A DNA stretch of 64,000 nt, taken from positions 1 through 64,000 of the forward strand of contig NZ_RBIN01000004.1 of NCBI RefSeq assembly GCF_003633775.1, read 5' to 3'. Below are positions 4,106 through 40,435 of the stretch, piece by piece (position 1 is the first letter of the stretch; each line of letters opens with the position of its first letter). Both the position numbers and the translations under genes were made by a program. The notes under the pieces are model-generated. The model did not search any database and was not told the origin of the DNA. It was given only the letters and a program-made list of their open reading frames with translations. Source of the stretch: Kushneria sinocarnis. GTDB taxonomy: Bacteria; Pseudomonadota; Gammaproteobacteria; Pseudomonadales; Halomonadaceae.

Positions 4106-4276
4106 CCCCTCACAAGTCGGCGCGAACGGTAGGTTGAACGGTGCCGCCGGCACCCTGTGGCCAACGTTATTGCCGATATCGACCGCAAGCATCATGTTCT
4201 TGACCCCCGGCGGGATGTTCACTTCAGCCGGTTCCTGCATCCAAGGTATAAGCCCGGCGCCCGCCACCCCTCTGCT

Positions 4277-4295
4277 ATCGTGGCTGCGCCACGAT
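4277..4295. promoter_or_regulatory. Inverted repeat ATCGTGG-N5-CCACGAT
   Basis: A perfect 7-bp inverted repeat in the 251-bp divergent region between the c-di-GMP gene and the FAD-linked oxidase gene, about 60 bp before the latter's ATG. It could be an operator or a leader hairpin. No other support. Confidence 0.3.
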
Positions 4296-4356
4296 CTCAT
4301 CTTGCGCATGCCCGGCCAGCGCCTGCCCATCTTCATCAATCACCGGAAGCCGCCTC

Positions 4357-5790
4357 ATGACATCGAGTGCCAGCGCCATCGCCGACCAACTGACCGCCCT
4401 GCTCGGCAGCAGGGGGGTACTGCAGCATGACGCGGACCTCGGCCGCTACATGGAGGACTGGGCCGGTCACCGGCGCGGTCGGCCACTGGCCGTGGCGCGC
4501 CCGGCAAGCACCGAGGAAGTCGCCGCGGTGGTGCGCTTCTGTCATGCCAACGGCATTCGCATGGCGCCCCAGGGGGGCCATACCGGGCTCGTGGACGGCG
4601 CCCTGCCGGCCGAAACCGACGATGAGCTGATCATCAGTCTGGAGCGCCTCAATCGTATTCATGCCATCGACCCGATCAGTTTCACCATGGACGTGGACGG
4701 CGGCTGTATCCTGGCCGATATCCGGGAGGCAGCACAGGCGCAGGCATGCTTCTTCCCGCTCTCCTTCGCTGCGCAGGGCAGCTGTCAGATCGGCGGCAAC
4801 ATTGCCACCAACGCCGGCGGCATGAATGTGCTGCGCTACGGGGTCACTCGCGAGCTGGTGCTGGGGCTCGAGGTGGTGCTGCCCGACGGGCGCATCTGGA
4901 ACGGCATGAAGGCCCTGCGCAAGGACAACCGCGGCTACAATCTCAGGCAGCTGTTCATCGGCAGTGAAGGCACCCTGGGCATCATCACCCGCGCCGTGCT
5001 GAAGCTCTTTCCGAAGCCCGATCAGACGGCGACCGCCCTGCTGGCAGTGCCCTCGGTGGAAGCCGCCGTGCGCCTCTACGGCGAGGCCCGGCGCGGCTGC
5101 AGCGATCTACTGTCGGCCTTCGAACTGATTCCCCGCAGCTGCCTGGAACTGGCCTTCGAGGCGACCGACCAGCTCAGCGACCCGCTCTCCACGGCCTACC
5201 CCTACTACGTTCTGCTGGAAGCCTCGGCCACCGGCCCAATCGAGCTCGATACCATGGTCGAGCAGCTGCTCGAACACGCCATGGCGCAGGAGCTGCTGCT
5301 CGACGGCGTGCTGGCAGCCAGCAGCTCCCAGGCCGAGCGGCTGTGGCTGATCCGCGAGAGCATGCTGGAGGGACAGCGCGCCCGGGGCCCTCATCTGCGC
5401 ACCGATATCGCCGTTCCACTGGCCCGGATTGCCGAATTCGTGACCGAGGCGAGCGCTGCTGTCGAAGCCGCGTCGCCGGACTCCACGGTGCTGGTCTATG
5501 GCCACATCGGTGATGGCAACCTGCACTATAATATCCTGCCACCATCACAGCTCCCGGAAGCCGACAAGCACGCCCTGCTGCATGACCTCGAGGCCCTCGT
5601 CTTCAGCGTGCTTGACCGCTTCGACGGTAGCCTCAGCGCCGAGCACGGCATCGGCCGGCTCAAGCAGGCTGCCTGGCTGGAGCGCGTCTCGAGCGATGAG
5701 CTCGCCCTGCTGACCGGCATCAAGGCGGTATTCGATCCCGATCAGCTGCTGGCCGCCAACCGCATCCTGCCCGCCTCAGGGCGCGACTGA
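4357..5790 (+). CDS. FAD-linked D-2-hydroxyacid dehydrogenase (GlcD/D2HGDH family)
   Basis: Encodes 477 aa. The N-terminal half (about residues 35-215) is an FAD-binding PCMH domain, with the typical flavin loops MAPQGGHTGL and QIGGNIATNAGGM and the IGSEGTLGIIT segment. The C-terminal half is the FAD-linked oxidase cap with GHIGDGNLHYNI (about residue 384) and SAEHGIGRLK, which carry the metal and substrate-binding residues. The family oxidises D-2-hydroxyglutarate, D-lactate or similar acids, passing electrons to a quinone or ETF. Cytoplasmic or peripheral membrane. The substrate cannot be fixed from sequence; D-2-hydroxyglutarate (linked to SerA) is the likeliest. GGAAG precedes the start. 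Confidence 0.85.
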   Translation: MTSSASAIADQLTALLGSRGVLQHDADLGRYMEDWAGHRRGRPLAVARPASTEEVAAVVRFCHANGIRMAPQGGHTGLVDGALPAETDDELIISLERLNRIHAIDPISFTMDVDGGCILADIREAAQAQACFFPLSFAAQGSCQIGGNIATNAGGMNVLRYGVTRELVLGLEVVLPDGRIWNGMKALRKDNRGYNLRQLFIGSEGTLGIITRAVLKLFPKPDQTATALLAVPSVEAAVRLYGEARRGCSDLLSAFELIPRSCLELAFEATDQLSDPLSTAYPYYVLLEASATGPIELDTMVEQLLEHAMAQELLLDGVLAASSSQAERLWLIRESMLEGQRARGPHLRTDIAVPLARIAEFVTEASAAVEAASPDSTVLVYGHIGDGNLHYNILPPSQLPEADKHALLHDLEALVFSVLDRFDGSLSAEHGIGRLKQAAWLERVSSDELALLTGIKAVFDPDQLLAANRILPASGRD

Positions 5791-37805: not shown

Positions 37806-38456
37806 TCAAGCCCCCATGACGGCTGCAAAGCGATCCAGACAGGTAAACGCCTCGCTGTCGACCGGCGCGCGCTGGCTGTCGGGCTGGCGAATCCCCAGCA
37901 GATGCCGGATGCCACTGGCCCGGGCGCACTGCAGCACGGCCGGATTGTCGTCGATCAGCAGCGTCCGCTGCGGATCATGGGGCTCATGATTCAGCAGCGC
38001 CTGCCAGAACTCCGGCGACTCCTTCGGCGCGCCCAGGTCCTCGGAAGAGACCAGCGCATCGACATACCGGTCCAGACCGGTGAGCTCGAGCTTCAGGGCC
38101 ATCCCCGCACGATCGGCGTTGGTCGCCAGCACCACCCGCTGCGGCGCGGCATGCAGCCACTCGAGAAACGCCCGGGCATCGCTGCGATAACCGATCAGAT
38201 GGCTGATCTCGCGCTTGAGGGTGAGCATGTCGACCTCGAGCTAGCGCTGCCAGTAGCGCAGGCTGTACCAGTCCAGCGTCCCGCGCTCGGCCAGGATACG
38301 CTCGACCAGGGCATGGCCATGCGACGTCTCGAGGCGATGGATCTCGCAGTAGCGCCGCGGCAGGTGCTCCAGCCAGAAATGGGTATCAAAGTGCAGATCC
38401 AGCAGGGTACCGTCCATGTCCAGCAGCACGGTATCGATATGACGCCAGTCGATCAT
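37806..38456 (-). pseudogene. yrfG: HAD nucleotidase YrfG, interrupted by in-frame TAG
   Basis: A GMP/IMP-type HAD nucleotidase frame of 216 codons. Motif I is VLLDMDGTLLDLHFDTHF near the start, motif II VVLATNADRAGM, motif III Lys in SSEDLGAPKESPEFW, and motif IV LLIDDNPAVLQCA. An amber TAG at 38241-38243 (codon 72) breaks it after WYSLRYWQR. The frame resumes at once with LEVDMLTLKREISHLIGYR, with no frameshift. All four motifs otherwise remain, so it is a recent nonsense mutation or a base error. Position between nudE and hslR matches E. coli yrfG. Confidence 0.85.
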
Positions 38457-38556
38457 GGGCAGTTCGCCACCGGGAATTCACCCTTCATTGTACGGGACGC
38501 ATCGCTTCGCGCCCATCGCGGTGTCATCATGGGCGATCGTTGTGGAGGAAGCACTC

Positions 38557-39129
38557 ATGTCACGTCATCACCGCCCCGTGATCCATCAGCGCCGCGAGGT
38601 CGCTGCCAGTCGCCTGTTTCGCATCGAGTCACTGGAACTCGAGTTTGCCAACGGCAATCGCCGTACCTTCGAACGCCTGCGCAATGCCGGTCGCGGTGCC
38701 GTGATGATCGTGGCCCTGCCCGATCCGGAGCATGTGCTGCTGATTCGCGAGTATGCCGCCGGCATCGACGACTACGTGCTGACCCTGCCCAAGGGCGTCA
38801 TCGACCCCGGTGAGGACATGATCACCGCGGCCAATCGCGAACTCCAGGAGGAGTGCGGCTTCAGCGCCGCCCGTCTGGAACCGCTGATCGAGCTGACCCT
38901 GGCGCCCAACTACATGAATCACCGCATCAGTGTCCTCATGGCCAGCGAGCTGCAGGAGTCGCGCCTGCCCGGCGACGAACCGGAGCCGCTGACCGTCGAG
39001 CGGATGCCGCTGGAGCAGCTGGACAGCCTGCTGGCCACCGGCGAGCTGCACGAAGGCCGGGCCGTGGCAGCGCTGCTGATGGTCCGGGAGCGGCTGCGCG
39101 AGCGCCAGGAGCTGCCGACCCTGTGGTAG
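38557..39129 (+). CDS. nudE: ADP compounds hydrolase NudE
   Basis: Encodes 190 aa. Nudix box GVIDPGEDMITAANRELQEECGF is intact at about residue 80. Hydrolyses ADP-ribose, Ap3A and NADH. The N-terminal RLFRIESLELEFANGNRRTF and the LTLAPNYMNHRISVLMASEL region fit NudE. The ATG at 38557 has TGGAGGAA upstream; an earlier in-frame start lacks this. Divergent from yrfG, as in E. coli. Confidence 0.94.
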   Translation: MSRHHRPVIHQRREVAASRLFRIESLELEFANGNRRTFERLRNAGRGAVMIVALPDPEHVLLIREYAAGIDDYVLTLPKGVIDPGEDMITAANRELQEECGFSAARLEPLIELTLAPNYMNHRISVLMASELQESRLPGDEPEPLTVERMPLEQLDSLLATGELHEGRAVAALLMVRERLRERQELPTLW

Positions 39130-39176: not shown

Positions 39177-39209
39177 TGAAAAAACCGCCGTCGGCGGACC
39201 GACGGCGGT
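39177..39209 (-). terminator. Terminator between nudE and the repeat-protein gene
   Basis: ACCGCCGTCGG pairs with CCGACGGCGGT around CGGA, an 11-bp perfect stem. On the minus strand it is followed by six Ts, giving a strong terminator for the gene at 39237. It can also serve nudE. Confidence 0.88.
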
Positions 39210-39236: not shown

Positions 39237-39689
39237 TTACTGCTGATCCTGGCCCTGGTCAACGCCGCCACCTGCCTGGGTGGGATCGCTGTCACCATCG
39301 GGCACGGTGCTCTCCATCTGCGAGGAGTGCCCCTGGCGACCGGTCGGCGTTTCAGCCGCACCGCTGGCGCCACGATTCATGTCCGACTGCTGGTTGTCCA
39401 TGCCGGCACCAGCGTTGTGCTGATCGTCATTGCCGTCGGGCATGGCATTTTCCATCTGTGCGGAATGCCCCTGACGCCCGGTATCGGTGGCATCAGTGCT
39501 GGTGCGGCTGTTGTCCATGGTATCGGCCGTACTGGTCGCTTCGGAGCCCATCTTGGACTGGCCTTCATCATCCTGATAGGCCGAGGACTGACCCATCGCG
39601 GATTCGCTGTCATCGGCCGCCAGCGCCCCGACGGTCGGTAGTGCCAGCAGAGTCGAAACGGCGGCTACGGCAAAGGTTCTCTTCATCAT
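39237..39689 (-). CDS. Exported acidic disordered protein with RQGHS-x-QME repeats (A)
   Basis: Encodes 150 aa. MMKRTFAVAAVSTLLALPTV with cleavage after GALA (about residue 22), then a Ser/Asp/Gln/Gly-rich acidic chain with no hydrophobic core. Two motif copies are present: TGRQGHSAQMENAMPDG (around residue 72) and TGRQGHSSQMESTVPDGD (around 119). It is followed by a strong terminator and preceded by a good ribosome binding site (GGAAGG). The start at MMKRTF gives a clear signal peptide; an upstream extension to 39821 lacks one. It shares its repeat with the next gene. No known family recognised. Confidence 0.7.
   Translation of the reverse strand: MMKRTFAVAAVSTLLALPTVGALAADDSESAMGQSSAYQDDEGQSKMGSEATSTADTMDNSRTSTDATDTGRQGHSAQMENAMPDGNDDQHNAGAGMDNQQSDMNRGASGAAETPTGRQGHSSQMESTVPDGDSDPTQAGGGVDQGQDQQ
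39315..39488 (-). repeat. Two copies of a 36-bp repeat within gene A
   Basis: Copies at about 39315-39350 and 39453-39488 read on the plus strand as CATCTG-N2-GAGTGCCCCTG-like, ending in GGTCGG or GGTATCGG. On the minus strand they encode the RQGHS-x-QME motif. Related copies lie in the gene at 39998. Confidence 0.7.
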
Positions 39690-39841
39690 GATTCCTTCCC
39701 TTGATTCCGGATTCCGGGATGGTGGAAGCCATCCGGTGCCATCCTGACACCATGCTTTAGCCGGGTAATCGGCTGAGGACACTCCGTGAAGTGGCGATGA
39801 TTCGAAGACGGTGGCAACCATCCCGTTGATTTACACTCCAA

Positions 39842-39870
39842 AAGTTAGTCGCCAACCTTTCTTCTGTCAA
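39842..39870 (-). promoter_or_regulatory. Predicted promoter of repeat-protein gene A
   Basis: On the minus strand, TTGACA (39870-39865, perfect consensus) and TAACTT (39847-39842) are 17 bp apart. The leader is about 150 nt. An inverted repeat TGTAC-N7-GTACA at 39876-39892 lies just upstream of the -35, in an activator-like position. The 308-bp gap 39690-39997 otherwise shows only terminator-like hairpins. Confidence 0.5.
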
Positions 39871-39905
39871 AGCCGTGTACATCATGCGTACAAGTTTTTA
39901 AGAAA

Positions 39906-39935
39906 AATCCAGGCGAGAGCCTGATGACCCTCGCC
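39906..39935 (-). terminator. Terminator after repeat-protein gene B
   Basis: On the minus strand, GGCGAG and CTCGCC form a 6-bp stem with a 12-base loop followed by TGGATTTTT. A second hairpin CGACAC-N6-GTGTCG lies between it and the stop at 39998. Confidence 0.5.
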
Positions 39936-39997
39936 CGGAACGACACCGTCACGTGTCGGGCAGCGGCGCCTGCAGAACCGATCAGATGACTCGGGTC

Positions 39998-40435
39998 TTA
40001 CCGGTCATTGTAATCGCTCTGGTTGTCGCCATCGGGAAGCGTGCTCTCCATCTGTCCGGAGCGCCCCTGACGGCCGGTCGGGGTATCGTTGTCGAACTGT
40101 CCGCTGCCATTCGCTGTACCGCTGGGTGCAGGCGCAGTATGACTGGTGCCATTGCTCCACTGCTGATGACTGCCCTGACCGGAGTCGTGCATGGTGTCCT
40201 GCATCTGGGCGGAGCGTGGCTCGCGATCGGCCGGCGTGGCGTTATCGAACTGGCCGTTGCGGACATTGCCCCGGTCCTGATTGCCAAGGGTGTCTTCCAT
40301 CTGCGCGGAACGCCCCTGCCGGCTGGTCGGGGTGCCGTTGTCGAACTGCGCATTCTGATCGGGCTGGCCGGCACACCCCTGCAGCGCGGTCAGGCCAAGA
40401 CCGGCGATGGCGACAGCTGTCAAAGTCCTTTTCAT
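39998..40435 (-). CDS. Lipoprotein with RQGRS-x-QME repeats (B)
   Basis: Encodes 145 aa. MKRTLTAVAIAGLGLTALQG followed by Cys gives a lipobox-like LQGC, so a lipoprotein is likely. The mature chain is polar and acidic, with three copies of a unit close to QFDNxTPTxRQGRSxQMExT (TSRQGRSAQMEDTL, ADREPRSAQMQDTM, TGRQGRSGQMESTLPDGD). GGGAG lies upstream of the ATG at 40435. It shares the motif with the adjacent gene A, so the two are paralogous in the repeat though not in the rest. No family recognised. Confidence 0.7.
   Translation of the reverse strand: MKRTLTAVAIAGLGLTALQGCAGQPDQNAQFDNGTPTSRQGRSAQMEDTLGNQDRGNVRNGQFDNATPADREPRSAQMQDTMHDSGQGSHQQWSNGTSHTAPAPSGTANGSGQFDNDTPTGRQGRSGQMESTLPDGDNQSDYNDR
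40049..40333 (-). repeat. Three copies of the 36-bp repeat within gene B
   Basis: Copies at about 40049-40084, 40202-40237 and 40298-40333, spaced 96 to 153 bp. They align with the two copies in gene A at DNA level (CATCTG-N2-CGGARYG-CCCCTG), so all five derive from one ancestral unit. Confidence 0.7.

Follow-up and report, generated by a model that had tools for sequence, protein, structure and literature searches.

The window, by which we mean the whole 64,000-nt stretch of contig NZ_RBIN01000004.1 from Kushneria sinocarnis that was analysed, contained two adjacent genes on the minus strand coding for a signal-peptide protein (P0001) and a lipoprotein (P0002), as had been predicted from the letters of the DNA (Table 1). 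Reading by eye placed the end of the P0001 signal peptide at ALA/AD, leaving a mature part of about 126 aa, and the lipobox of P0002 at LQG/C. The original prediction had given these proteins two and three copies of one short motif, and this count held: the pattern R[QE][GP][HR]SxQM[EQ] had 2 + 3 matches in mature P0001 and P0002, compared with 1 in 200,000 shuffles of both chains. The repeat was recognised in the DNA at all five places as well, the other four copies being 64-81% identical to the reference copy over 64 nt. That the motif was the only conserved part of the chains proved incorrect, since P0002 repeats a longer unit, QFDNxTPxxR(Q/E)xRSxQM, and a GQE segment is kept in most homologues. 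An antisense ORF was considered as the true gene and ruled out by the signal peptide, the ribosome site (read by eye) and the pattern of changes. Six terminator-like sites were detected in the region versus 1.2 expected from shuffles and, because one such hairpin follows P0002, the two genes are likely to be read as separate transcripts.

Table 1. Positions of the motif genes, their repeats and the flanking features in the window
Feature	Position	Strand	Remark
nudE, ADP compounds hydrolase, convergent neighbour marking the locus	38455..39129	+	NCBIfam NF008736, 248.2 bits, cut-off 169; start not fixed
Terminator-like hairpin, 3' of P0001, between P0001 and nudE	39184..39209	-	terminator scan
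P0001, exported protein, 150 aa, two motif copies	39237..39689	-	nudE-adjacent copy; homologues in 13 further genomes
P0001 motif copy 2, TGRQGHSSQM, C-terminal copy	39315..39344	-	coordinates by arithmetic
P0001 motif copy 1, TGRQGHSAQM	39453..39482	-	coordinates by arithmetic
Likely P0001 promoter, TTGACA-17-TAACTT, conserved among homologues	39842..39870	-	upstream comparison; generic scan did not report it
TGTACA element, 4 nt before TTTGAC	39876..39881	-	upstream comparison
Terminator-like hairpin, 3' of P0002	39908..39939	-	terminator scan
P0002, lipoprotein, 145 aa, three motif copies	39998..40435	-	duplicated copy, also in G090
P0002 motif copy 3, TGRQGRSGQM	40049..40078	-	coordinates by arithmetic
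P0002 motif copy 2, ADREPRSAQM, degenerate	40202..40231	-	coordinates by arithmetic
P0002 motif copy 1, TSRQGRSAQM	40298..40327	-	coordinates by arithmetic

Homologues were present in all 10 Kushneria genomes searched. At E 0.1, profile A1 matched 23 of the 202 genomes of the family, 14 of which were accepted, namely the 10 Kushneria, three of genus g8 (Larsenimonas, including G007, L. rhizosphaerae) and one of g10 (Phytohalomonas tamaricis); the nine weak matches (E 0.002-0.09) were discarded as two FKBP-like proteins, two proteins of the GSANT type described below and five taken as chance. At the level of the order, 5 of 390 genomes matched, four being Kushneria and the fifth a weak match (G538, E 5.4e-4) inside a 487-aa frame. 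Scanning the genome contigs of 84,980 species with the motif pattern returned 16 stretches, eight of which were Kushneria, Larsenimonas or Phytohalomonas loci; the other eight lay in frames that are short or rich in arginine and code for no such protein, one of them having an internal stop, and no further protein of the RQG type was found by this pattern, which misses variants such as RQGHSAEM. A viral origin of the motif was rejected as well: five viral contigs matched the degenerate DNA pattern, but none of them showed GRQGHSxQM within an open frame. With the RQG type, all matches to Pfam and NCBIfam families were below the respective cut-offs; it had been stated earlier that no family defined by the motif was known. 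Against solved structures the best E was 0.11. Four sequence phrases of the RQG and GSANT repeats occurred in no paper of the literature searched, and in further searches, judged by title and beginning of the abstract, no paper named such a protein. As far as searched, the RQG-type proteins form a small, undescribed, nudE-adjacent family of Kushneria, Larsenimonas and Phytohalomonas.

The motif gene was convergent with and adjoined nudE in 14 of 14 genomes, with gaps of 65-153 nt in the 13 loci besides the window. In the window it is P0001 that adjoins nudE, and P0002 does not. Among the genomes searched, the P0001/P0002 pair was found only in the window and in G090; the 8 other Kushneria genomes had the motif at the same nudE-adjacent place, as one gene in seven and as a different tandem pair in G097. 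Because of this common place, the pair in the window would most simply have come from tandem duplication of a whole gene with later gain of the lipobox, and the earlier proposal, in which repeats were duplicated from one neighbouring gene into the other, accounts for it less well. Of the two genes, the one next to nudE looks ancestral and P0002 its duplicate; since G097 has a tandem pair of its own, such gene duplication probably happened twice. It was also noticed that in Phytohalomonas (G009) the direct neighbour of the motif gene codes for another exported hydrophilic protein, this one motif-less (L139, about 4213-4648, minus strand). Elsewhere in the window's own genome (G000:C5:64723-64968; L144:1330-1746, minus strand), an exported-looking hydrophilic protein of 138 aa, rich in Ser, Gly and Gln, has a sub-threshold YbgS match (22.6 bits) and holds TGRDSSSEGM, which is faintly motif-like.

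Comparison of the upstream regions revealed two patterns, TGTACA-N4-TTTGAC and TTGAC-18-TANNNT, each preceding 13 of the 14 nudE-adjacent genes, the exceptions being G103 and G097, respectively. The exact form of the former occurs once in the window's genome. Four other upstream regions were read, those of P0002 in the window, P0002 in G090, the outer G097 copy and the motif-less Phytohalomonas neighbour; among these genes, none of which is nudE-adjacent, TTGAC-18-TANNNT was seen only at the outer G097 copy and TGTACA-N4-TTTGAC at none. The promoter would leave a leader of about 146 nt before P0001 (window 39690-39840), in which blocks are conserved among the clade A species defined below (TTGCAGGAAGTAT); in the window its fold was not unusual (z -0.39).

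To what extent the motif itself is maintained was seen most clearly in its C-terminal copy, where R, Q, G, S and M were invariant in 17 proteins from three genera. All four CGN, GGN, TCN and GCN codons were used among 30 motif copies, which had been picked by a pattern demanding R, S and M and are uninformative on the invariance of these three residues. In seven Kushneria species (clade A), pN/pS, taken as simple proportions uncorrected for multiple hits, was 0.02 for the C-terminal motif (13 columns), 0.14 for the signal peptide and 0.32 for the rest; the 10 core residues were identical in the seven species while their synonymous sites differed, so that 0 of 10 core columns were variable versus 54 of 94 other ungapped columns (Fisher p 0.0004). 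Between the window and G090, pN of P0001 was 0 in the motif and 0.150 in the rest, whereas the two canonical motif copies of P0002 had a pN/pS of 0.32 versus 0.21 for its rest. The block test gave a weaker result: of 301 random draws of blocks, 19 were as conserved as the motif for clade A (using the first 10 of its 21 pairs), 13 for the P0001 pair and 141 for the P0002 pair. These results indicate strong purifying selection on the motif, acting at the level of the protein, in the nudE-adjacent gene and, given the 141 draws conserved equally well, no special constraint on it in the lipoprotein. A dN/dS near 1 on the motif, named beforehand as the finding that would speak against a functional motif, was not what the nudE-adjacent gene displayed; in P0002 the motif was no more constrained than its surroundings. 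A function of the repeat at the DNA level was rejected, synonymous positions varying freely.

The internal copy in clade A was canonical in one of the seven species and degenerate in the other six (TGQxxNGxSAQM or TGQTxSGSAQM), which suggests that several copies are not strictly needed. Repeats have probably been duplicated inside genes in G015 and G097. The G015 gene (L030:7548-7967) has three units, of which the C-terminal copy is canonical and the other two are degenerate and alike (TGQTNSGSAQM and TGQTKSGSAQM), and internal duplication of these two is therefore probable.

nudE, used as bait in 25 genomes, was found in 24, and in our own reading six loci outside the three RQG genera had an exported hydrophilic ORF beside nudE, one in g2, one in g4, three in g7 and one in g19 (G019, read in the same direction as nudE). 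Shadow frames that were basic, Arg-rich or parts of longer genes were discarded by eye; inspection by eye of the nudE loci of 17 other genomes (16 further genera and G019) revealed no other such gene. Five of these proteins were combined into a profile (A3), which had matches in 35 of the 202 family genomes, in g2, g4, g7 and g19, and in 2 of 390 genomes at the level of the order, both within the family. The repeat of this second, GSANT type is TGSANTxxGSxKxEGGTA. nudE was present in 29 of the 30 A3 loci returned, the remaining one (L122) being a short contig end; for the five A3 genomes from which no locus was returned, the gene lay beside nudE in four of g19, and in G136 (g4) neither an intact gene nor nudE was seen within 5 kb. 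The GSANT-type gene of G136 (L138) was split over three matches, one of them interrupted by a stop, and may be a decayed or misassembled copy. The G019 locus (L069:174-560) codes for an exported acidic protein with DDGVDAIEDRD/DKGVDAREDRND repeats, located after nudE and on the same strand, at a site where four other g19 genomes have a convergent GSANT-type gene instead.

The GSANT type shares with the RQG type its place beside nudE, the signal peptide, the presence of 2-3 repeats and a hydrophilic chain, but it has another repeat, and neither RQG-type promoter pattern was found in its upstream regions (0 of 5). Profiles including the signal peptides gave a probability of 94.8%, aligned mainly in the signal peptide, whereas the mature parts had no profile similarity (probability 0.6%), and common descent of the mature parts is not supported by this comparison. 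In a NudE tree of 32 rows, from which g24 was missing and in which 13 of 29 inner forks were unsure, the RQG genera formed one group with g16 and g17 (97/91), and g7 was its sister (95/94); g16 and g17 are without such a gene beside nudE. The simplest account would be one old nudE-linked exported gene, followed by a change of repeat and some losses. Independent arrival of the RQG and GSANT types at the nudE site is also possible, since their mature parts lack profile similarity.

Regarding composition, which rests on cleavage sites guessed by pattern, the 17 mature RQG-type chains had 8.5-14.3% Gly (17 of 17), a GRAVY of -1.00 to -1.70 (beyond -1.00 in 16, one being borderline at -1.00 as printed), a pI of 4.05-4.79 and 0-8.6% of V, I, L, F, W and Y together. 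Charge-hydropathy placed 22 of 22 chains, five of the GSANT type included, on the disordered side, and the RQG-type chains are predicted from composition only to be disordered. By the hydrophilin criterion given in PMC7448490 (Gly above 6% and a hydrophilicity index above 1), both window proteins have a hydrophilin composition. The RQG type resembles hydrophilins and LEA-like proteins in Gly content above 6%, hydrophilicity of about 1 or more and disordered-type composition; unlike them, it is exported and acidic and carries a strictly conserved linear motif.

We consider it about evenly balanced whether the following reading is the right one, namely that these are exported proteins of the hydrophilin class in which the motif docks to a putative envelope partner. 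It starts from what the sequences themselves display: the proteins have export signals and a composition of the disordered type, their genes are orthologous by place and have a conserved promoter, and the motif is under selection at the protein level. The acidic chain of P0001 would lie in the periplasm and that of P0002 would be tethered to the outer membrane, the latter placement using the lipoprotein sorting rule of E. coli. The chains would dock to one envelope partner through their short RQGxSxQM copies, 1-3 in each, and the linkers would need only to stay soluble and acidic in salt. The motif Arg would be a natural contact point, since several Kushneria species have no other basic residue, or hardly any other, in the mature chain (no other K/R in 3 of the 17 proteins). 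By analogy with hydrophilins, these proteins may protect the envelope when cells face salt or drying stress. A linear binding motif, as originally put forward, fits the strong purifying selection in the nudE-adjacent gene; in the lipoprotein the motif is under no special constraint.

It is unlikely, although the chains do have the numbers of hydrophilins, that these are bulk hydrophilins only, in which composition is what counts and the motif, left over from internal duplication, has no binding partner. The probable duplications inside the G015 and G097 genes, the lack of special constraint on the P0002 motif and the borderline block test for the others would agree with this; against it, the C-terminal copy has kept its 10 core residues in seven species over differing synonymous sites and its R, Q, G, S and M in three genera. 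Still less probable is a methionine-rich, sacrificial envelope antioxidant working like MrpX/BcrX, the exposed Met residues of which would soak up hypochlorite or other oxidants and be repaired by MsrPQ. The mature chains contain 1.9-9.4% Met (3.2-9.4% in 16 of 17), the usual content of proteins being about 2-2.5%; none of the 17 proteins has lost the motif Met from its C-terminal copy, and outside the core Met is the residue best kept in clade A (0.82, with Pro at 0.81 and Gly at 0.80). However, the motif's R, Q, G and S, for which a sink would have no use, are kept as strictly, Phytohalomonas has 1.9% Met, and no msrPQ was recognised by eye among the neighbours in the locus neighbourhood, where most ORFs were not named. 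MrpX/BcrX (PMC8315932) and the SilE protein treated below are weaker parallels than the hydrophilins. The RQG type resembles MrpX/BcrX in its small exported chain and perhaps in its many Met, and differs in having conserved non-Met residues.

Three further readings appear very improbable. Small disordered periplasmic proteins rich in His and Met and with a repeated motif, of the SilE/PcoE type, are on record (PMC5008109), and HSxQM sets His and Met four residues apart, as might suit a metal sponge binding Cu+ or Ag+; the spacing, however, is HxxxM and not the HxxM/MxxH reported for SilE (PMC5008109), His is not strictly conserved, being replaced in 7 of 30 motif copies, and among neighbours read by eye, most of them unnamed ORFs, no copper or silver gene was recognised. 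Equally little speaks for a lineage-specific offshoot of the YbgS family (PF13985), an exported protein that enterobacteria make under RpoS control. In E. coli, ybgS depends on RpoS (PMC2907692) and is among the HU-regulated genes shared with an osmotic-shock set (PMC2634741), and its product has been found with the signal peptide removed (PMC8629258); the RQG type agrees with it in export signal, small size and richness in Gly, Asn, Ser and Asp, and one GSANT-type protein of the nudE site scored 29.9 bits with PF13985 (cut-off 27). Yet this cut-off was exceeded in only 2 of the 202 family genomes, each a g7 genome with a protein of the GSANT type; when the mature part of the 29.9-bit protein was shuffled, 7 of 9 versions still matched, at 13.2-21.1 bits, and hhalign with E. 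coli YbgS aligned the signal peptide and little more. None of 15 RQG-type proteins matched PF13985 at E 0.1, nor did two further ones, and YbgS itself has two Cys and lacks RQGxSxQM. We take YbgS, by analogy, as a functional parallel only for the RQG type. As for a processing or cross-linking site, the other role first suggested for the motif, the strictly kept Arg, in 3 of 17 acidic chains the sole basic residue, would suit a trypsin-like cut, but the 1-3 copies stand at no fixed distance from the C-terminus, there is no C-terminal anchor, and the only candidate enzyme recognised by eye was a Lon-like protein (cluster cl6, in 10 of 12 neighbourhoods), Lon being a cytoplasmic protease; the suggestion found no support.

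Returning to the docking motif, exported disordered proteins of bacteria have mostly been treated as bulk protectants; with one motif frozen and the rest drifting, the RQG type would offer a testable case for a specific partner of such a protein. A bolder and rather doubtful proposal, which we put forward tentatively, is that seven genera kept a nudE-linked, exported, disordered protein with 2-3 repeats in which, on the stem leading to Kushneria, Larsenimonas and Phytohalomonas, TGRQGxSxQMExT took the place of TGSANTxxGSxKxEGGTA as the repeat in a wholesale exchange. If this is true, a disordered envelope scaffold would have had its docking motif, and presumably the receptor, swapped while its position and architecture stayed unchanged.
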